Assembly (NCBI RefSeq): GCF_039645985.1
Contig: NZ_CP147919.1
Location: 2,046,001 to 2,110,000, forward strand
Length of the DNA: 64,000 nucleotides
Direction: 5' to 3'
DNA from: Sulfurimonas sp. HSL3-7
Lineage (GTDB): Bacteria; Campylobacterota; Campylobacteria; Campylobacterales; Sulfurimonadaceae
Made by a program: the position numbers and the translations under genes. The notes beneath the pieces are model-generated. The model ran no database searches. It was not told the DNA's origin and saw only the letters and a program-made list of their open reading frames with translations. Below are positions 53,615-64,000 of this stretch, one piece after another; position 1 is the first letter of the stretch, and the number at the start of each line of letters is the position of its first letter.

Positions 53615-55216
53615 ATGTCTCTATATCTGTTTTTAACCTCCCTTTTTATCTCTTTTGTATTTACCGCCTGTACCCCCGCTCCAGATGTACCGCTCTCTGC
53701 CGAACTGAGTCAATACGCAGAAGCCCAGGAAAGATGTGAAGGGCTGCGCACGGAGATCGCTGTTGCCGATGCCCTCGAAAACGAGTGCCATCTTTTTCTG
53801 AACCGTCTGGAGAAAGCCAATGCGCTCGACTACAAGATAGCGCACTTCAACGATGACAATCCAGACCCCAACGCCAAACCCAAACCGGAGTACATCCTTT
53901 TACAGACCGAGAGCCACCGCCAGCATCTGAAAAGCAGCCTTGCGTACCAAAAGCTTATAGACACGCTTAACCGTGTCTCTGCAACGGCAATTGCCAATGA
54001 TGAACTTTCCGACGTTGAACTGACGTTGACCTTTAGCGAGACTGAGTTTACGAAACAGCACTATCACTATTATAAGCGATATGCTCCCCAGTTTGATACC
54101 GATCCACGATACCTTGCCTTCGAGAAGCAGTATGCCAAAGAGCTGTTAGAGGAGGGGCTGCTGTTTTTAAGTCAGGGCGAGAAGCACCGCGCGCTTAAAA
54201 ACTTCAAAGAAGCGGCTGTCCTGCACAGCGCTCAGGCCGAATACCTTGCCGGAATCATTTACGAGGCCAAACATGTCGACAAAGCCATTGAGTGGCACAC
54301 AAAAGCGCAAGCACACGGCATCAAAGAGGCCCGCCTCCACCTCGCCCGTCTCTACAAACGAAAGATGGAGCCCAAAGAGTCGCTTAAATGGTATCTGGCG
54401 GCTGCGGAAGACGGTGATGCCTATGCGCAGTTCCTGCTTTATCAGCAGTACATAACGTCAACCTCGCAGAAGACGGAAGAGATCGCCGACAAATGGCTGC
54501 AACATTCTGCAGAGAACGGTTTCCCGCCGGCAGAGTACGCCTATGCGGAGCGTCTCGAGCAGAACAATAAGCCAGAAGAAGCCAAAACATGGCTGCTCAG
54601 AGCAAAAGACCACGGCATAACCGCTGCGAACGGACCGCTCGGCGGGCTCTACTTCGAGGATAAAGAGTACGAAAAAGCCTACCCTCTTCTGGATGCCGCC
54701 AAGAGTGCCACAGCAAAATACCGGCTCGGTGTGATGTTTGAACGCGGGCTCGGTGTTGAACCTGACTATTACAGTGCCTACCAATGCTACAAAGAGGCAG
54801 CTCGGCTGGGCTATGGCGATACAGGAAAAGAGATGGCCCGTGTCGACAAACTGAAAACGCAGCGTGAGCAGGCGTATTACGAGGCGGCCAAACGCAAAAA
54901 ACGGCTTTACAAAAAAGAGCTTGCCGAACGCTGCGGTGAAAGAGCGATCAAGCGCATCGCCAGAACAAAAGATACCAAGGTCTATCTTAACGGCCTGGTC
55001 TCACTGCCTCTGGAGGACGTTAACGGCTTTTTACTCCATACAGACGACGGCAGGCAGTTCTATGTGATCGATACCGACCGCCAAGCCGGTCTAAAACCGT
55101 TCCAACATGCCGACATCACCGCCATCTCCACCGGAAACGCGATCACGGTCAGCAGCGACAACCGCGGGACACGCGACGTCTATCAGTTTTATTTTCAACA
55201 GCACTGCCAACCCTGA
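53615..55216 (+). CDS. Sel1-repeat lipoprotein, paralogue 1
   Basis: 533 residues, start after AAGGTACGCA. Lipoprotein signal ends at VFTAC. An N-terminal helical region is followed by Sel1-like repeats (AEYLAGIIYEAKHVDKAIEWHTKAQAHGIKEARLHLARLYK; AYAERLEQNNKPEEAKTWLLRAKDHGI) and a C-terminal ~90-residue beta domain starting ERCGERAIKRIART and ending YFQQHC, with a likely disulfide pair. First of three tandem homologues, and 14 bp before the next. Envelope scaffold of unknown partner. Confidence 0.82.
   Translation: MSLYLFLTSLFISFVFTACTPAPDVPLSAELSQYAEAQERCEGLRTEIAVADALENECHLFLNRLEKANALDYKIAHFNDDNPDPNAKPKPEYILLQTESHRQHLKSSLAYQKLIDTLNRVSATAIANDELSDVELTLTFSETEFTKQHYHYYKRYAPQFDTDPRYLAFEKQYAKELLEEGLLFLSQGEKHRALKNFKEAAVLHSAQAEYLAGIIYEAKHVDKAIEWHTKAQAHGIKEARLHLARLYKRKMEPKESLKWYLAAAEDGDAYAQFLLYQQYITSTSQKTEEIADKWLQHSAENGFPPAEYAYAERLEQNNKPEEAKTWLLRAKDHGITAANGPLGGLYFEDKEYEKAYPLLDAAKSATAKYRLGVMFERGLGVEPDYYSAYQCYKEAARLGYGDTGKEMARVDKLKTQREQAYYEAAKRKKRLYKKELAERCGERAIKRIARTKDTKVYLNGLVSLPLEDVNGFLLHTDDGRQFYVIDTDRQAGLKPFQHADITAISTGNAITVSSDNRGTRDVYQFYFQQHCQP
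54260..54297 (+). repeat. 38-bp identity shared by two Sel1 paralogues
   Basis: 54260-54297 equals 55843-55880 base for base, in the codons for YEAKHVDKAIEWH. The surrounding sequence is clearly diverged, so this points to local gene conversion or strong constraint. Confidence 0.7.
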
Positions 55217-55230
55217 AAGAGAGATCGATC

Positions 55231-56805
55231 ATGCCCTATATTTTTATCCTGACATTTTCAACAATGCTTTTGCTGACAGGTTGTCTGGCGACGCCGAAAG
55301 CTGCGATGCATGCCAAACTTTCACCGTACAAAAGCCTCCAAAACGGCTGTACAAAAAACCCGCCCAAGGCGTTGGAACAGGAGTGTGCTCTCTTTCTGAA
55401 CGACCTCGAAGCGCAAAACACTCTTCTGCAGAAGATGGAAAACCTGAACGAGGATGAAAAAGCGGAAAGCGCCTACACCGCACTGGCCGCAGAAGCGTCG
55501 GCACGTCAGGAAAAGCTTCAAAACGACAAGGCCGTTTTAGCCGGCAGCTGCCAGGCAAAGATAAGAACGATCATTCAGAACGACGATCTCAACAGTGCAG
55601 AATTTTGTCTGCTGTTCGAGAAAAACCCTTTCACATTGGAGATGTACCGTTATCTGAAGCGGCACGCACCCCGCTTCGATATTTACCCCCAATACAGAGC
55701 CTTTGAAGAGGCCTATGCTTCCCAACACATCGAAAAGGGGCTCGCCGCCTTGAACAGGGGTGACAAGCATGCCGCGCTGAACGCCTTTCAAACGGCCTCG
55801 GATGCGAACAGCGCCGAAGCCAAATATCTTATCGGCATCATCTACGAGGCCAAACATGTCGACAAAGCCATTGAGTGGCATAAAGAGGCCCTTGCGCACG
55901 GTATTGAACGTTCCAAACTCAACCTCGCCCGGCTCCATCTCCGTATCAAGATGCCCCATAAAGCCAAGCAGTGGTATCTCAGCGCAGCAGAGGGGGGTGA
56001 TGCTCTCGCCCAGTACCGCCTTTTTAAAATGGATGCCAAATCCAAAAGCATCAAAGCGCGGGAAGAAGCACAGATGTGGCTGGAGCGCTCTGCAAAAAAC
56101 AACTACCCCCAGGCCCAATATATCTACGGTCTTCAACTCTTGAAACAGAAAAAAAAGCAAGAAGCGATCCGCTGGCTTGAGAAAGCCGAGAACAACGGCG
56201 TCACCGATACCCGATTTTTCCTCGGGAGACTCTATTTCCAAGAAAAGGCCTATCAAAAAGCATACCCGATGCTGATGGAGACGCAAAACAGAGGCGAAGC
56301 CAACGTTATGCTGGCACGGATGTACGAAGAGGGTCTCGAAATAGAGCAGAACCACGTTCTCGCCTACCGACATTATAAAAAAGCCCATGAATTCGGACAA
56401 AACAACTGCATAGCTGATATGCAGCGCGTACAGAAGAAGATCACCAGACAGGAACGCCAGGCTGCAAAAGGTATCGTCCAAAAAGAAGCCAAAGCGCAAA
56501 AAGAGGCCCGCCGGACATGCGGTGATCCTGTCGACAACAAAAATATCAAGATCCGCGACAAAACCGTTCGCATCGTGGGGGTGTCCGCCGGTGCGCAGAG
56601 AAAAAGTGGCGGGCTCACTGTCTATGGTGACCATGAGCGGCTCTACTATATCATTGATCCCAAGATAGATGACGGGCTCAAGGCCTATCAGAAAGTCGAT
56701 CTCCTCGTCAAAGCGACAGGGAATTCTGTCGAGATCAGCGACGACAGCGGTGCTTTGCAGCGCGTCTATCGAACGTATTATCTCAAAAATTGTAACTTAA
56801 ACTAA
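55231..56805 (+). CDS. Sel1-repeat lipoprotein, paralogue 2
   Basis: 524 residues; lipoprotein signal MPYIFILTFSTMLLLTGC. Same plan as paralogue 1: N-terminal helical region, Sel1-like repeats (AKYLIGIIYEAKHVDKAIEWHKEALAHGIERSKLNLARLH), and a C-terminal domain beginning TCGDPVDNKN and ending YYLKNCNLN. It starts 14 bp after paralogue 1 and ends 9 bp before paralogue 3. A 38-bp stretch is identical to paralogue 1. Confidence 0.82.
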   Translation: MPYIFILTFSTMLLLTGCLATPKAAMHAKLSPYKSLQNGCTKNPPKALEQECALFLNDLEAQNTLLQKMENLNEDEKAESAYTALAAEASARQEKLQNDKAVLAGSCQAKIRTIIQNDDLNSAEFCLLFEKNPFTLEMYRYLKRHAPRFDIYPQYRAFEEAYASQHIEKGLAALNRGDKHAALNAFQTASDANSAEAKYLIGIIYEAKHVDKAIEWHKEALAHGIERSKLNLARLHLRIKMPHKAKQWYLSAAEGGDALAQYRLFKMDAKSKSIKAREEAQMWLERSAKNNYPQAQYIYGLQLLKQKKKQEAIRWLEKAENNGVTDTRFFLGRLYFQEKAYQKAYPMLMETQNRGEANVMLARMYEEGLEIEQNHVLAYRHYKKAHEFGQNNCIADMQRVQKKITRQERQAAKGIVQKEAKAQKEARRTCGDPVDNKNIKIRDKTVRIVGVSAGAQRKSGGLTVYGDHERLYYIIDPKIDDGLKAYQKVDLLVKATGNSVEISDDSGALQRVYRTYYLKNCNLN

Positions 56806-56814
56806 AGGTTTGCT

Positions 56815-58383
56815 ATGCGGTTTTATTCATTACCTCTCTTTCTCCTACTTCTTGTCCTCTCGGGATGTACACCATCACCCGGTATCCCTCTGTCGCCTCA
56901 ATTGAGTTCCTATGCCGACGCGCAGCAGCAGTGCCATGCACTTCTCAGCGGCGAGGGCAAACTCGGCACGGAGGTCGAACAGGGATGTGACACCTTTTTA
57001 AAACGTCTAGAGAAGAGCAACGACATCGCCACCGAACTCGATACAGAAAAACTCAGAAAATCCGACCGGGCCATCAAAGAGACCGAGTATGCACGCCAGC
57101 GCCTTAAGCTGAAACTCGAGTACGAATTGCTGATGGAAACGGTCAAGAAAGCGACACTCGCTGCCGTCAGAGAAGACGATATCGATGCGTTTACCACCAG
57201 CGTCTCTTTCCCGGGGAACAGCTTTATCGAATCCTATTACGTCTATATGAAAAGCAAATCCCCCCGTTTCGACAAGGACCCCCGTTACCTTGCGTATCAG
57301 TATAGAGAGAGTGAAAAGCTGGCAGAAAAAGGGACATACTATCTCGACCAGGGCGAAAAGAGCAAAGCCCTCGAACTCTTTGAAAAAGCTGCCGATATGG
57401 GCAACGCGCAGTCCGCACGTTCTACGGCACTCCTCTACGAAGAAAATAATGTCAGCCAGGCGCTCTACTGGCATCGTAAAGCCGTTGAAAACAATGTCAC
57501 CGCGTCACAATACAACCTGGCCCGCCTCTATGAAACGCAAGGCGAGCAGGAGAAGGCAAGACGATGGTACGACAATGCGGCGCGGAGCGGTGATGCCCGG
57601 GCACAGTACAAGCTTTATCAGCGCCTAAAGGGCCAGGAAAAAGAGAAGGCCCTCAACTGGCTGAATAAATCGGCGCAAAGCGGCTATCCCGAAGCCCAGT
57701 ACGACTACGGAACGTTCTTGATGGAAGAGAATAGAACGGCCGATGCCATCAGCTTTTTGCAGCAGGCTGCACACAGCGGTTATCAGCCCGCTTCCGATTT
57801 TCTCGGAAACTATTTCTACAATCTGAAACTTTACGATCGTGCGATGGCCTCTCTTTCACAATCGGAAAGTGCCGACGCCTTCTACCTGCGGGCCGAGATG
57901 CTGGAAAACGCGCGCGGATGCGAGAGGGATTACGCTCAGGCCTATACTTTCTACGACAAAGCCTACGTCCTGGGAAAAAAAGAAGCCCTCGATGATGCCA
58001 AACGGGTCAAACAGCTCCAAATCCAAGAACAGCAGCGCATCGCCGAAGAGGCGGAAAAACGCAGGGCCGAGCAGATGGCGGCCATGGTCAAGGAGTGCGG
58101 CGAAGTGCCGACAGCTTTACTTATCAAGACGGGCAACAAAAAGTTCCATATCACGGGAACGGCTTCCGCATCTCTGGGCAGAAACACCTTCATTATCTAC
58201 GGTGATGACGGCGAATCCTACTACCTGCTGCAGGCGAAAGGTATCAAAGGAGGGCAGCGTGTCGACATCTCGGTACGCTCGACCGGCAAAACGGCGTTAC
58301 TCCGCAGTGCAGATGATGACGAGCCACGAGATATCTACCAATTTGTCTATCTAAAATCCTGCGCCGCCACGCAAGAGCAGTAG
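56815..58383 (+). CDS. Sel1-repeat lipoprotein, paralogue 3
   Basis: 522 residues; lipoprotein signal MRFYSLPLFLLLLVLSGC, start after AAAGGTTTGCT. Sel1-like repeats (AQSARSTALLYEENNVSQALYWHRKAVENNVTASQYNLARLYE; AQYDYGTFLMEENRTADAISFL) and the C-terminal domain (KECGEVPTALLIKTGNKKFHITG ... YLKSCAATQEQ). Less similar to the first two, so an older copy. Confidence 0.82.
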   Translation: MRFYSLPLFLLLLVLSGCTPSPGIPLSPQLSSYADAQQQCHALLSGEGKLGTEVEQGCDTFLKRLEKSNDIATELDTEKLRKSDRAIKETEYARQRLKLKLEYELLMETVKKATLAAVREDDIDAFTTSVSFPGNSFIESYYVYMKSKSPRFDKDPRYLAYQYRESEKLAEKGTYYLDQGEKSKALELFEKAADMGNAQSARSTALLYEENNVSQALYWHRKAVENNVTASQYNLARLYETQGEQEKARRWYDNAARSGDARAQYKLYQRLKGQEKEKALNWLNKSAQSGYPEAQYDYGTFLMEENRTADAISFLQQAAHSGYQPASDFLGNYFYNLKLYDRAMASLSQSESADAFYLRAEMLENARGCERDYAQAYTFYDKAYVLGKKEALDDAKRVKQLQIQEQQRIAEEAEKRRAEQMAAMVKECGEVPTALLIKTGNKKFHITGTASASLGRNTFIIYGDDGESYYLLQAKGIKGGQRVDISVRSTGKTALLRSADDDEPRDIYQFVYLKSCAATQEQ

Positions 58384-58466: not shown

Positions 58467-59714
58467 ATGATCGACCTTAAACTCCTTCAAAAAGATTTTG
58501 ACCTTGTCAGCAGCCGGCTCCAGCGCAAGGGTGTCAGCCCGGAGACAATCGAATCCGTCAAAGAGAAAAACGAAGCGCTGAAAACAGCGAAAGCGGCCTT
58601 TGAGAACGCTCAGGCAGAGCAGAATGCGATGAGCAAGCTTTTCGGCACCTACAAACGCGAGGGCAGAGACATCACCGAGCTCAAGGCCAAAGTCGATGCG
58701 AACAAGATCGTCGTCACTGAGATGCAGAACCGACAGCGTGAAGCCGAAGAGTCGCTGACAGCCATGGTCATGGTCCTGCCGAACATGCCTGACAATGATG
58801 TGCCCGACGGCGAAGATGAAGAGGATAACGTCGAGATCAGAAAGGTACTGACCCCCCGTCAGTTCACCTTCACGCCGAAAGAGCACTGGGAACTGGCCGA
58901 GACGACAGGCTGGATCGATTTTGAACGCGGCGTCAAACTGGCACAAAGCCGTTTCTCCGTCATATCCGGCATGGGTGCAAGAGTCGAACGCGCACTGATC
59001 AACTTCATGCTCGACTTCAACCGCGAACGCGGCTTTAACGAGGTCTCTGTACCCCAGCTTGTCAACCGGCGCGCCCTTGAGGGAACAGGACAGCTTCCGA
59101 AGTTCGAAGAGGATCTCTACAAGGTCGAAAATGACGATCTCTACCTGATCCCGACAGCGGAAGTGCCGTTGACCAACCTGTTTCAGGACGAGATCATCCC
59201 CGAAAGCGAACTGCCGATCAAGATGAGCGGCTACACCTCCTGTTTCAGAAAAGAGGCCGGTGCGGCAGGACGCGACACCCGCGGCATCATCCGCCAGCAC
59301 CAGTTCCACAAGGTCGAGCTTGTCTCTATAACCGGCCCGAACGAGAGCGACGCCATGTTCGAAGAGATGGTCAGCTGTGCATCCGACCTTCTGACCGCGC
59401 TCGAACTCCCGCACCGTCTTGTCACGCTCTGTATCGGCGATCTCGGGTTCGGTGCGGCCAAAACCGTGGACCTCGAAGTGTGGCTGCCGGGGCAGAATAC
59501 CTACCGCGAGATCTCATCGGTCTCCAACACCCGCGACTTCCAGGCACGCCGTGCAAAGATCCGCGCAAAGATAGACAACAAAAACGTCCTTGTCCATACT
59601 CTTAACGGCTCCTCTCTGGCAGTCGGGCGTACCCTGGTAGCGATTATGGAGAACTTTCAAAACGAAGATGGCACTGTTACCATCCCTGAGGTATTAAAGT
59701 CTTACCTACGCTAA
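58467..59714 (+). CDS. serS: Seryl-tRNA synthetase
   Basis: Class II synthetase that charges tRNA-Ser, 415 residues. N-terminal antiparallel coiled-coil arm (~1-110) that grips the tRNA long arm; motif 1 around [24 protein letters not shown], motif 2 [28 protein letters not shown], motif 3 [27 protein letters not shown]. The ribosome site is AAGGAATAGTA. Normal in all respects; it marks the left border of the AT-rich right-hand segment. Confidence 0.97.
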
Positions 59715-60192
59715 AAAATTTTATAAAATACATTAAAATAGGCAGATTTTGCTGCCTGTTAACTACCTCAATCAATCCTCAAAAAAACTTAATACATTCT
59801 TTTTTATATTCATCATTCAAGCTTTTTTTGATGTTTCAACTAAACTTAAATAATAATCGTCTGGAGAATATTTCAACCTATGTGAATATCTATCAATCAT
59901 AGATTAAACAGTCATATCATTTGACATCGACTTCATTCCAGCAAACTTCTTTCTGATATACCTAATAACAGTAACAGACAATGATTCAATAAGCTTTGTC
60001 AACGCGGAATTTAACTCCGCCGTTGACAACAGTAATATAAACTTGTTCAAGCAAAAGTAAAAATTCAAAAAAATAGTAGATGTTACAAGTAGTAGCAATA
60101 TTTTTTTATAACTTTTAATTATTTATATTTCAATATTTATTGAATATGTTTTAAAGATAATAAAAAAACTTAATAACGAATGAGGGACTTCA
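59715..60192. other. AT-rich intergenic region before the WXG-like genes
   Basis: About 480 bp with base composition like the genes to its right and unlike serS. It contains an 18-bp-class hairpin (59996-60029) and no convincing gene; a minus-strand frame at 59904-60098 (ALTKLIESLSVTVIRYIRKKF) is weak and runs through the hairpin. It could be an island boundary or hold the promoter of the operon. Confidence 0.5.
59996..60029. other. Strong hairpin at the left edge of the AT-rich segment
   Basis: TTGTCAACGCGGA (59996-60008) pairs with TCCGCCGTTGACAA (60016-60029) with one bulged base and a 7-base loop. It is GC-rich in AT-rich DNA. Without a U run it may be a terminator relic, an attachment site, or a transposon end. 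Confidence 0.5.
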
Positions 60193-60477
60193 ATGAGTAA
60201 ACAAGTAGACATAGATATAGAACATGCAGATAACTATATGCAACATATAGATGCAACTACTAAACAAACGTTGATCATTGTTGATCGAATGAAGCAACAA
60301 GTGAATGGACTAAAGAAACATTGGACCAGTCAAGAAGGGGTCAATGAACAACATAAACTTCTGAAAATAATACAAGAGTATGAAGAGACTGTAAAAAAGA
60401 TGAATGCATTACATAAACATACAAAACAACATTCAGACCACGCCAAGCAAATCCTAGATTATGCAAACTCCAACTAA
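60193..60477 (+). CDS. Small helical protein, WXG100-like
   Basis: 94 residues, helix-turn-helix hairpin by pattern, no signal peptide. The centre carries W44 in HWTSQEG, a WxxxxG turn in place of the WxG of WXG100 proteins. The size, two long amphipathic helices and central tryptophan match WXG100 substrates of type VII secretion. Start after GAGGGACTTCA. The next gene has the same 15-base start context (ACTTCAATGAGTAAA) and the same WxxxxG, so the two are likely duplicates, probably partner chains. Family assignment is by pattern only. Confidence 0.6.
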   Translation: MSKQVDIDIEHADNYMQHIDATTKQTLIIVDRMKQQVNGLKKHWTSQEGVNEQHKLLKIIQEYEETVKKMNALHKHTKQHSDHAKQILDYANSN

Positions 60478-60486
60478 GGTACTTCA

Positions 60487-60750
60487 ATGAGTAAAATAGA
60501 AATCAACCATCAACAAGTCTTACAAATTATACGCGAGCAAGAAGAAGATATAAAAAAACTTCAATTTGCTTACGAAAAGAATAAAGAGATGCTCGATAAC
60601 ATTGATTGGAAAGATGAGAAAGGCGATAAAGCAAGAGATGTACTGGCAAAAATTATTGCAGAGCTTGAAAGGGTTATAGGTTTTCATAGAAAACGACTGA
60701 TGCATATAGAAGAGACTATGAAAAAATCTCAAAACTACTCAAATGCCTAA
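60487..60750 (+). CDS. Small helical protein, WXG100-like
   Basis: 87 residues, mostly helical and charged; W41 in DWKDEKGDKARDVL forms WxxxxG. Start after AAGGTACTTCA, 9 bp after the previous gene. Same size class and motif as its neighbour, so a heterodimer like EsxA/EsxB is plausible. No C-terminal YxxxD/E type secretion tail is obvious (ends KKSQNYSNA). Confidence 0.6.
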   Translation: MSKIEINHQQVLQIIREQEEDIKKLQFAYEKNKEMLDNIDWKDEKGDKARDVLAKIIAELERVIGFHRKRLMHIEETMKKSQNYSNA

Positions 60751-60793
60751 CTAAACAAATAATATTCGAATATAGAACAACAGTGGAAAAACG

Positions 60794-63694
60794 ATGACAA
60801 AAGAACAAGCAGATAAAGAGATTTCAAATTTAAAAGAACAGGCAAACTCTGAGATTACTACACTAGAAGAGCAAATAAACAACGAAAAATCAAAACTTGA
60901 AAAAAGCCATGCAGACACCATTCTGCAGCTAAACAAAATAGAAGAAGATAAAGAAAAAAACTTTTCAAATGAAATTGAGCTGACATTAAATACATATACT
61001 CAAGAACTAGAGAAAACCAATATTCAATGTGAAAAGAAAAAAGACATTGAACAAAAAAAATATGAAGACGACACATCCTCCCTCATCACCAGTATAGAGC
61101 AAGAAATAGAAAAGTTTATCAACAATGATATACCTGCGTTACAAAAAGCCAATTCTACATATTTGGAAAAATATGAGCAATATATTGCAAAACATCAATC
61201 TAACCATGAATTGCTAAAAGTTTTTCCAGATTCTGTTTCAATAGGTTATGACAAACTTACTCTATCGCCAAATGCATCTTTTGAAATACCTGCGGTTGTA
61301 CCTTTTCTTGGAGAGACATCCCTTAAATTTGATGCCACAGATGAGAATCATGATCTTATACAGACTATCATAATGAAAACTATCACTTCATTACCGGTTG
61401 GTGAGTATAAATTTATCGGTATTGATATGCAAAAAGCTGGTGGAAATCTCATTAACCTAGTTGAATTGGATGAGAAGATTGTGGGCTCAGGCATCTTGCA
61501 TAGCAAAAGATCTGTAATGTCTGCCATGGAAGAACTTTCGGATGCTATTGGCCAATTAACACAAAAATACCTAGGAGCAAAGTATTCATCACTTAAGGAA
61601 TATAATGAGGATGCTCAAGAAGTCGTTGAACCATATAGAATCCTATGTGTAACAAACTTTCCAGACAAGTTTGATGATACCAGTTTAGAGCATCTTGAAA
61701 TGATAGTTTCTCAGGGGCCTACAGTCGGTATTCAAACAATACTTTCAATTTCTCCATCATATAAGTTCGACAATCCAAAAATCGATGATGGCATACTGCC
61801 TTACTTGAGCGAAATAGAATGTTTATTAGTGGAGAATAGTACACGGGCAATTGAAACATTCCCTTCAGAAGTAATGCAGTCACTGGTTACTTCAATTAAC
61901 AGTAAGCACAGGAAAGTAGAGAAGAAAATCATTTCATTCGACTCTATCGTAGAAAATACTCTTTGGGAAAAAACCACGATTGATCGAATTGAAGCACCTC
62001 TTGGTCGTGCAGGTGCCAAGGGTGTTAAAAGTCTGATTCTTGGTGAAAGCGAACATCATGCACTTATTGCAGGTGCTACCGGTAGTGGTAAAACTGTATT
62101 ATTACATACACTGATCAATACGCTTGCGCATAACTATTCACCCGAAGAACTACAACTTTATTTATTAGATTACAAAGAAGGTACAGAATTTTCTGTTTAT
62201 AAAAATCTTCCGCATATGTCTGTTCTATCACTTTCAAGTGAACGACTATTTGGGTTAAATATTTTAAAAGGTGTTCAAGCGGAGATAAACAGACGTGGTG
62301 AACTTTTCAAATCAGAGACAGGTTCAAATAATATTAAAGAGTATCGTGAACGAAGCGGAAAAACACTGCATAGACTAGTGATCATATTTGATGAATTTCA
62401 GGTACTTGTATCAGGTATGGATAAAATTGCTTCAGAAGCGTTAGATATTTTCGAAGACATTGTTAAACGTGGACGTTCATTTGGGGTACATTTGATTTTA
62501 TCTACACAATCATTATTCGGCTTGGATTTAGGAAAAATAATGGGGCAAATTCAGGTTCGAATCGGTATGCGTATGGATGAAAGTGAATCGCAAAGACTCT
62601 TCTCAAGTGACAATAATGCGGCAAAATATTTAGAACGTGGTGAGGCAATATACAACCGTGACAATGGAAAAGAGGAGGCCAATGTCAAGTTTGGCGTAGC
62701 TTATATCGATAATGATTCAATTAATAAACATGTGCTAATGCTTAAAGATATCGCTCTAGAGCGTGGAATACCGCTTGATACGCAAAGAGTATTTGACACA
62801 AACCTGGATGCAGATATAACCAACAACACTTATTTCCAAAAAGAACATAAAGTTGGACGCTTCTCTGATGCCTATATTGGCGAACCAAACTTCATCAGTG
62901 ATCAACATGTCTTTTTTAGAATCAAACGTGATATTCCGGCCAATGTTTTAATTGTCGGTGATCCAAAAGAAACAGTATTCAGTCTAATTTCTTCTATATT
63001 ATATTCACTATCCCTTACTATGGATAAAGCAAGTGAATTCTATACCATCAATCTTCTTGGCGAAGATGATGAGTATAAAGAAGAACTGGACTTTGTTACT
63101 GGTCTGCCTGTAAAATCATATATTGGACATGACCTGGATGAAGCAGAAAACGTGATTGACAATCTCAATGATGAACTTGATAAACGCGAACTGAACAAAC
63201 AGACGAAATATCCTACAATCATACTTACGATAGTTGCTGTGCACAATGCACGTTCGTTCAGGTCGGATGGCTATAACAGTTCGACATATATTCAAAAGTT
63301 ACATAGATTAGTCAAAGATGGTGCAGCCAGAAATATCCATGTTATTCTTCATTCAGACCGATATAATCGTCTCAAAGAGATGGTTGAAAGTTCATTCTTT
63401 CGAGAGTTTGAATCTGCACAGATTATTCTACGTGGCGAAGACAGTCAAAAACTTTTTGAAGACCAGGGTCTTTTCCTGGATAAAGTCCGATCGCCGCATA
63501 TTGGGATTATCAAAGGTAATCAGAATAAATTTGATGTCGATGAATTTAAAGTCTATCCATTTGCAAAAGTCAAAGCGCTTTATGACAATTGTGCCCACAA
63601 TAATGATAAAGAAGATTATCCGAAATTTTTCAATGCCGTTGAAATTGACACGAAAGAGAAGACTGATGACACGTATGACAGTCTTTTTGACTAG
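60794..63694 (+). CDS. EccC/EssC-like FtsK-SpoIIIE ATPase, soluble
   Basis: 966 residues, 43 bp after the WXG-like pair. An N-terminal coiled coil (~1-140) leads into three RecA-like modules. Module A (~160-400) has no Walker A. Module B (~400-650) is a canonical FtsK/SpoIIIE ATPase close to EccC: IAGATGSGKTVLLHTL (Walker A, ~427-434), LQLYLLDYKEGTEFSVYKNLPHMSVLSL, RLVIIFDEFQ (Walker B, ~528), FGVHLILSTQSL. Module C (~690-930) has a degenerate loop GDPKETV. Unlike EccC and EssC it has no transmembrane helices. Codon use is AT-rich. It would drive export of the WXG-like proteins or pump another substrate. Confidence 0.8.
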   Translation: MTKEQADKEISNLKEQANSEITTLEEQINNEKSKLEKSHADTILQLNKIEEDKEKNFSNEIELTLNTYTQELEKTNIQCEKKKDIEQKKYEDDTSSLITSIEQEIEKFINNDIPALQKANSTYLEKYEQYIAKHQSNHELLKVFPDSVSIGYDKLTLSPNASFEIPAVVPFLGETSLKFDATDENHDLIQTIIMKTITSLPVGEYKFIGIDMQKAGGNLINLVELDEKIVGSGILHSKRSVMSAMEELSDAIGQLTQKYLGAKYSSLKEYNEDAQEVVEPYRILCVTNFPDKFDDTSLEHLEMIVSQGPTVGIQTILSISPSYKFDNPKIDDGILPYLSEIECLLVENSTRAIETFPSEVMQSLVTSINSKHRKVEKKIISFDSIVENTLWEKTTIDRIEAPLGRAGAKGVKSLILGESEHHALIAGATGSGKTVLLHTLINTLAHNYSPEELQLYLLDYKEGTEFSVYKNLPHMSVLSLSSERLFGLNILKGVQAEINRRGELFKSETGSNNIKEYRERSGKTLHRLVIIFDEFQVLVSGMDKIASEALDIFEDIVKRGRSFGVHLILSTQSLFGLDLGKIMGQIQVRIGMRMDESESQRLFSSDNNAAKYLERGEAIYNRDNGKEEANVKFGVAYIDNDSINKHVLMLKDIALERGIPLDTQRVFDTNLDADITNNTYFQKEHKVGRFSDAYIGEPNFISDQHVFFRIKRDIPANVLIVGDPKETVFSLISSILYSLSLTMDKASEFYTINLLGEDDEYKEELDFVTGLPVKSYIGHDLDEAENVIDNLNDELDKRELNKQTKYPTIILTIVAVHNARSFRSDGYNSSTYIQKLHRLVKDGAARNIHVILHSDRYNRLKEMVESSFFREFESAQIILRGEDSQKLFEDQGLFLDKVRSPHIGIIKGNQNKFDVDEFKVYPFAKVKALYDNCAHNNDKEDYPKFFNAVEIDTKEKTDDTYDSLFD

Positions 63695-63705
63695 GAGCCA
63701 CTTAC

Positions 63706-64000
63706 ATGTATACTGAATATAAAACATTAATTACTACTATCAAAGAAAACTCAAATCAGCTTCACGAACAAAATAGAAGTTTTCAAGAAAAACAAAAACA
63801 CTTGGAAGAAGAACTCCTGCAGGGAAGAGAAAACATCCTAAATCATCTTGAAGAAAAAAAACAAGAGATAGAGAACAACATACAAAACAGTCGAAATGAG
63901 CATAAAGCTTTAGTCTCAAAAGAGGAAGAAGAGTTTTCTGCAAAACTTCAAGCACTTCAAGACAAGTTACAACTTGGTAGAAAAAAAATTGACGATGATC
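63706..64000 (+). CDS. Coiled-coil protein (partial)
   Basis: Starts at ATG 63706 after TAGGAG, whose first bases are the stop of the ATPase gene, so the two are translated as a unit. About 98 residues are visible before the window edge, almost all charged heptad-like coiled coil (QEKQKHLEEELLQGRENILNHLEEKKQEIENNIQ). It resembles the coiled-coil N-terminus of the ATPase in style. Its function cannot be read; a structural partner of the ATPase is likely. Confidence 0.7.
   Translation, partial: MYTEYKTLITTIKENSNQLHEQNRSFQEKQKHLEEELLQGRENILNHLEEKKQEIENNIQNSRNEHKALVSKEEEEFSAKLQALQDKLQLGRKKIDDD

Follow-up and report, generated by a model that had tools for sequence, protein, structure and literature searches.

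A stretch of 64,000 nucleotides from Sulfurimonas sp. HSL3-7, referred to here as the window (bases 2046001-2110000 of the complete 2.87-Mb chromosome), carries, directly 3′ of serS, the first part of a five-gene island that continues past the right edge. The island is foreign and was laterally acquired at the serS 3′ end, and its cassette belongs to the described class of mobile, reduced elements that resemble the type VII secretion system (T7SS) (Zhang 2012; Anantharaman 2012; Bell 2024). The assignment to this class is made because Walker A and Walker B are kept in the middle module alone of the ATPase, an N-terminal coiled coil is present, a transmembrane (TM) segment is lacking, and the partners are solo WXG100-like proteins. 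With a little better than even confidence, we infer a stand-alone, mobile and ATP-driven cassette for type-VII-like export, attached to the membrane via a coiled-coil/TM protein. An earlier note on this DNA had described an AT-rich block after serS with two WxxxxG proteins, an ATPase and a coiled-coil gene, and these open reading frames (ORFs) and motifs are exactly as claimed. Its reading of them as a T7SS-like core holds for the EccC/EssC-like ATPase with WXG-like partners, but the system is of the reduced mobile class and not a canonical T7SS.

The ATPase (60794..63694, + strand, 966 aa) is an EccC/EssC-like soluble protein made of a coiled coil and three modules of ATPase fold. Its N-terminal ~130 residues form one continuous helix (60794..61192, +; residues 3–133 in the AlphaFold2 (AF2) model), a coiled coil at the place where EccC/EssC carry their TM and FHA parts. 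The sole P-loop, Walker A GATGSGKT (residues 427–434; 62072..62095, +), lies in the middle module, where alignments also place Walker B, LVIIFDEFQ (residues 528–536; 62375..62401, +). D533 and E534 are invariant in the 11 and the 21 homologues of two alignments, and the same module carries the LLDYKEGTEF and NLPHMSVLSL blocks. Both the alignments and the AF2 model, which shows the long N-terminal helix followed by the three ATPase-fold modules (predicted local distance difference test (pLDDT) 79, predicted template modelling score (pTM) 0.65), agree that only the middle one of the three has kept Walker A and B. No TM segment was detected in the ATPase by hydropathy, unlike in true EccC/EssC. 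The EccC-type module recognized in the earlier note is upheld.

In domain architecture the ATPase is nearer to EccC/EssC than to FtsK/HerA. Its profile scores, 127 bits for TIGR03924 (EccCa) and 95 bits for FtsK_SpoIIIE, are far above chance. With the NCBIfam EccCa and FtsK models, the ATPase obtains 127 and 35 bits and the genome's own FtsK 88 and 512 bits, while a true EccC reaches 951 bits with EccCa. The ATPase stays below the curated cut-offs (EccCa, 127 of 509 bits; EssC, 106 of 778), and the EssC model does not discriminate by itself, as the genome's own FtsK scores 117 bits with it and the ATPase 105. When a profile of eleven relatives was compared with the Protein Data Bank (PDB), the best matches were EccC 4nh0 (3.5e-55), YukB (6.3e-43) and EccC5 (5.9e-42), with FtsK (3.8e-27) and HerA (3.5e-9) behind them. 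Similarly, a Foldseek search with the AF2 model gave EccC/EssC at all of ranks 1–8 over 550–895 columns, compared with ~300 for FtsK. A tree built on the active module (D2) places the ATPase inside the mobile-T7SS-like family, to whose members its identity reaches 47% (L039), and FtsK forms a separate 100/100 branch; the order of EccC versus the family is not settled by this tree. HerA ranks under EccC, EssC, FtsK and TcpA in both sequence and structure lists. An FtsK/HerA DNA pump as the identity of the ATPase is ruled out by the model scores and the D2 tree, and the clustering with such pumps that the earlier note named as refuting its reading was not recovered.

Upstream of the ATPase lie the genes of two small proteins sharing the start context ACTTCAATGAGTAAA, as had been pointed out in the earlier note. 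Gene A (60193..60477, +) encodes a 94-aa WXG100-like helical hairpin with W44 at the bend (W44-TSQE-G49; AF2 helices 3–45 and 51–93), and gene B (60487..60750, +) an 87-aa helical hairpin with W41 at the bend (W41-KDEK-G46; AF2 helices 1–37 and 44–85). The fold was predicted from a single sequence, in which the in-frame TAA between the genes was read as glycine to give one chain with an artificial four-residue linker. This artificial chain folded into two hairpins, bent at each W, with four packed helices (pLDDT 74, pTM 0.72), so that the hairpin suspected for each protein is predicted for both. In the PDB fold comparison the model returned generic four-helix bundles. WXG100 entries were not among the matches listed, which excludes nothing, since a dimer of two chains is out of reach for a single fused one. 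The predicted structure and the operon position make WXG-like the best reading of A and B, and the sequence gives no proof of it.

The foreign origin of the island is evident from its composition and its borders. The G+C content falls from 50–58% to 30–38% directly 3′ of serS and, some 6.3 kb further on, is ~50% again near L003:8000 (window ~66000), where L003 denotes the sequence reaching past the right edge of the window. An island of ~6.4 kb with 30–38% G+C is thereby delimited within a chromosome of ~50% G+C, and third-position G+C is 18–30% in its genes against 69% in serS. Five + strand ORFs with small gaps make up the island, namely those for A (94 aa), B (87 aa), the ATPase (966 aa), a 571-aa protein and a second 87-aa protein. 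An AT-rich, non-coding leader (59715..60192, unstranded) separates gene A from serS; any ORF in it is shorter than 80 aa, and it had no match in an Rfam scan. Lateral acquisition and mobility are concluded from the G+C drop, from duplicated serS tails, and from the 571-aa gene being absent in 120 further family genomes.

The duplicated tails, a repeat overlooked in the earlier note, supply a mechanism for the lateral acquisition it proposed, which is insertion at the serS 3′ end. The intact serS ORF (58467..59714, +), with orthologues of 68–85% identity in 13 family members, has this end as the insertion site. Two copies of a 210-nt repeat flank the island ~6.6 kb apart with 87% identity, and their first 20 nt are identical. 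By nucleotide comparison, the left copy is the 3′ part of serS itself (59478..59687, +) and the right copy is a displaced serS tail (L003:8089-8298, window-equivalent 66088-66297), which is in frame and runs to its own stop codon. A second, shorter displaced tail lies beyond it at L003:8360-8414. The displaced tail is slightly nearer than the present serS tail to the serS of most relatives tested, a comparison that is only indicative since the aligned lengths differ; it fits an incoming element that put a new tail in place and displaced the previous one. In L148, a locus of the same family, a 53-base fragment of the serS tail lies 1.2 kb 3′ of serS. Several more of the 151 family genomes searched at the DNA level gave two or three serS-tail matches. 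On the strength of the displaced tails in the host (two), in L148 and in further family genomes, the serS 3′ end is probably a repeatedly used insertion site in the family. Such extra matches occur in G418, G403, G869, G880, G886 and G400, and some of them could be assembly duplicates or true second copies. We did not find serS described in the literature as the target of such a cassette. Directly upstream of serS (window 53615-58383) are three tandem paralogous genes for lipoprotein-like proteins of ~525 aa with Sel1/TPR-like repeats.

No integrase was found in the island. At its right end, L003:7760-8060 is non-coding, and the reverse strand, read by eye, gives GNTTIECFFRTLKDDETYIMTSIAMGSKTPKALWDF, a short transposase-like piece bounded by stops. 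These remains, along with the lack of integrase, toxin and TerY-P genes, would suit a larger mobile T7SS-like element that is decaying and has become non-functional. We regard such decay as quite unlikely, for the five ORFs are all intact and tightly spaced, the catalytic residues are conserved, and related stand-alone loci are just as small.

A canonical T7SS with its remaining membrane parts elsewhere in the genome is a further alternative, given that T7SS components are not always in a single locus. Neither EccB/D/E, EsaA, EssA/B, EsaB nor FHA was found in the island or ~14 kb downstream. The earlier note had expected further T7SS parts or a toxin past the right edge; this sequence holds instead the 571-aa and 87-aa proteins, followed by genes that, read from translations and with no library scan, look housekeeping (an FtsH-like protease, a phosphatidylserine synthase/decarboxylase-like pair and his-like genes). 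A whole-genome search with the EssC and WXG100 families, in which the EccB/EccD/EsaA families were not included, recovered this ATPase and FtsK only and no other WXG100. The ATPase also lacks the TM helices and the two intact Walker modules of such a system, and we hold scattered canonical parts to be highly improbable.

The reading of a stand-alone export cassette draws further on the last two genes. Starting 12 nt 3′ of the ATPase gene, the 571-aa protein (63706 to window-equivalent 65421, L003:5707-7422, +) combines a coiled coil, a single TM segment (residues 117–135) and MORN_2-like repeats. It is followed by the gene of the 87-aa membrane protein (L003:7486-7749, +). As in the window, loci L053, L112 and L038 pair a soluble ATPase with a separate coiled-coil/single-TM neighbour, and a coiled-coil/TM/MORN partner of such an ATPase was not found described in the literature. 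We put forward only tentatively, and with more doubt than belief, that the membrane anchor of EccC/EssC has been split off as a separate coiled-coil/TM/MORN protein in a five-gene Gram-negative element targeting the serS 3′ end. That soluble ATPases generally have a separate coiled-coil/TM anchor was rejected, because the counts given below speak against it and such an anchor is clear in four loci only.

If export is the function, A and B may pair as a four-helix dimer of WXG100 type that serves as substrate, co-substrate or adaptor. A hexamer of the ATPase would dock at the inner membrane, its coiled coil contacting the N-terminal coiled coil of the 571-aa TM protein, and this contact would stand in for the TM helices of true EccC/EssC. 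Hydrolysis of ATP in the middle module could then drive the WXG-like cargo's export or its remodelling, while the MORN-repeat part of the 571-aa protein would face the periplasm. We know of no outer-membrane route for such cargo.

Several results weigh against an export cassette of this kind. With VIA-align, the active module alone gives a Z of 32.2 versus FtsK and EccC alike; the aligned length is 520 residues to EccC and 278 to FtsK. Protein A is below the WXG100 cut-offs (PF06013, 13.8 of 27.3 bits; TIGR03930, 14.6 of 44.85), and protein B has no match to either model. A custom WXG profile was built from the operons of relatives alone, leaving out A and B, and was judged with 2000 shuffles. 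The outcome for A is marginal, as it was outscored by 6/2000 shuffles and by 1/2000 phase-preserving shuffles, and B did no better than phase-preserving shuffles. The hidden Markov model check of the small proteins proposed in the earlier note therefore came out partly, with A above most shuffles though under the family cut-offs, and B unmatched. Neither the island nor the ~14 kb beyond the right edge contains a recognisable toxin or immunity gene. Lastly, a coiled-coil+TM neighbour accompanies soluble ATPases in 1/13 loci, or in 6/32 by loose criteria, where the criterion was crude hydropathy and many loci were dropped by motif or flank filters.

Relatives of the ATPase bear on both its cargo and its function. 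Among 397 genomes of Campylobacterota, about two dozen have this ATPase class at E < 1e-40, mostly Helicobacter. The Helicobacter-type loci contain a SUKH immunity gene, a ~75-aa protein and a long helical protein that ends in a WHH-type/colicin-like nuclease. Since ATPase relatives adjoin nuclease toxins and SUKH immunity genes, an antibacterial or defensive role of the cargo appears the most likely one. Some Helicobacter ATPase regions (L009, L011 and L017) have in-frame stops, and broken copies thus occur; an alternate code in Helicobacter is mentioned by the CoCoNuT paper (PMC11090510). Clear WXG100 neighbours exist among the relatives (Pfam 1.5e-9). VWA, PP2C and kinase genes occur in addition in the L006 locus, from the host's family. 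Genome contigs, when scanned, gave at least 408 ATPase relatives, of which the best 80 are mostly Planctomycetota (L039-L118). A very common order there is a 90-aa WXG, a ~200-aa helical protein, a ~75-aa WXG and an EssC-like ATPase, the last with TM helices predicted in its own N-terminal part, unlike the window ATPase. For Bacteroidota, close relatives occur in 1/395 genomes, that being the query's own centre. Few relatives came from viral contigs, one of them at E 3e-64, and a phage link was set aside. In L037 (MT836827.1), a faecal contig labelled 'unverified bacteriophage', an EssC-like ATPase is encoded together with a serine recombinase, a ThiF-like protein and a WXG-like protein of metalloprotease type; the contig appears to be a bacterial mobile element rather than a phage.

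The best rival to export is an intracellular defence complex, in which the ATPase would be a HerA/FtsK-like anti-phage motor, A, B and the coiled-coil proteins would have structural or sensory roles, and the TM/MORN protein would act as a membrane effector of abortive infection. Relatives do lie inside CoCoNuT/TerY-P defence operons (PMC11090510), and on the Caballeronia plasmid L034 a WXG100 gene stands beside CARF, VWA, PP2C, kinase and AAA genes. The missing TM segment, weak matches of the ATPase to the defence ATPases SspH and mad8, and the compactness of an island at an integration hotspot point the same way. Nevertheless, the best matches and the multi-module architecture are those of EccC/EssC and not of HerA/FtsK, WXG-like partners are standard companions of export ATPases, and the nuclease-toxin/SUKH pairs of Helicobacter-type relatives are typical of exported polymorphic toxins. 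We consider a defence complex less likely than export, which remains the reading that we prefer. The cassette bears on whether type-VII-like export works in diderm bacteria. The ATPase/WXG class receives footnotes and one paragraph in papers, and no experiment was found in the literature searched. Being very small, with five genes and a defined insertion site, the cassette would lend itself to transfer into a laboratory strain for a direct test of export and of the anchor.

Among known systems, canonical T7SSa/T7SSb (EccC/EssC, EsxA/B) share the ATPase homology and the pair of WXG-like hairpins. They differ from the cassette in that its ATPase has one active module and neither TM helices nor FHA, and EccB/D/E, EsaA/EssA/EssB/EsaB are not nearby; a canonical identity was rejected on the ATPase scores far under the model cut-offs, the missing TM segment and the lack of partner genes in the vicinity. 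In Helicobacter, which is of the same order as the host, HP0062/HP0066 of H. pylori have been termed a 'WXG100 secretion system' (PMC4978471), and HP0062 (structure 3FX7) is a hairpin dimer with a W at the bend (PMC3397514). A soluble FtsK/EssC-like ATPase and a small helical hairpin of this kind are common to both, whereas in Helicobacter-type loci there are, in addition, a SUKH immunity gene and a long coiled protein ending in an HNH-type nuclease, and ATPase identity is only ~21–30%. In the extended Type III-A CoCoNuT (Bell et al. 2024, PMC11090510), the same ATPase is found with an N-terminal coiled coil, no TM and two WXG100-type proteins; as in the window, the middle module is active and one of the two small proteins lacks a clear signature. 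The window cassette differs by standing alone, without VWA, CARF, McrBC, TerY-P, D-ExK nuclease or DNA-mimic genes; for a stand-alone form of the ATPase, Bell et al. cite Anantharaman et al. 2012. A further description is a table footnote of Zhang et al. 2012 (PMC3482391), in which solo WXG domains accompany a YueA-like ATPase whose three HerA/FtsK domains include a single active one, in the middle, in several Gram-negative lineages including epsilon-proteobacteria, under the name 'mobile versions of T7SS'. The cassette shares with these the three-module ATPase active in the middle only, the solo WXG-like proteins, the Gram-negative host and the mobility, and it adds to them the coiled-coil/TM/MORN protein and an identified insertion site, the serS 3′ end.

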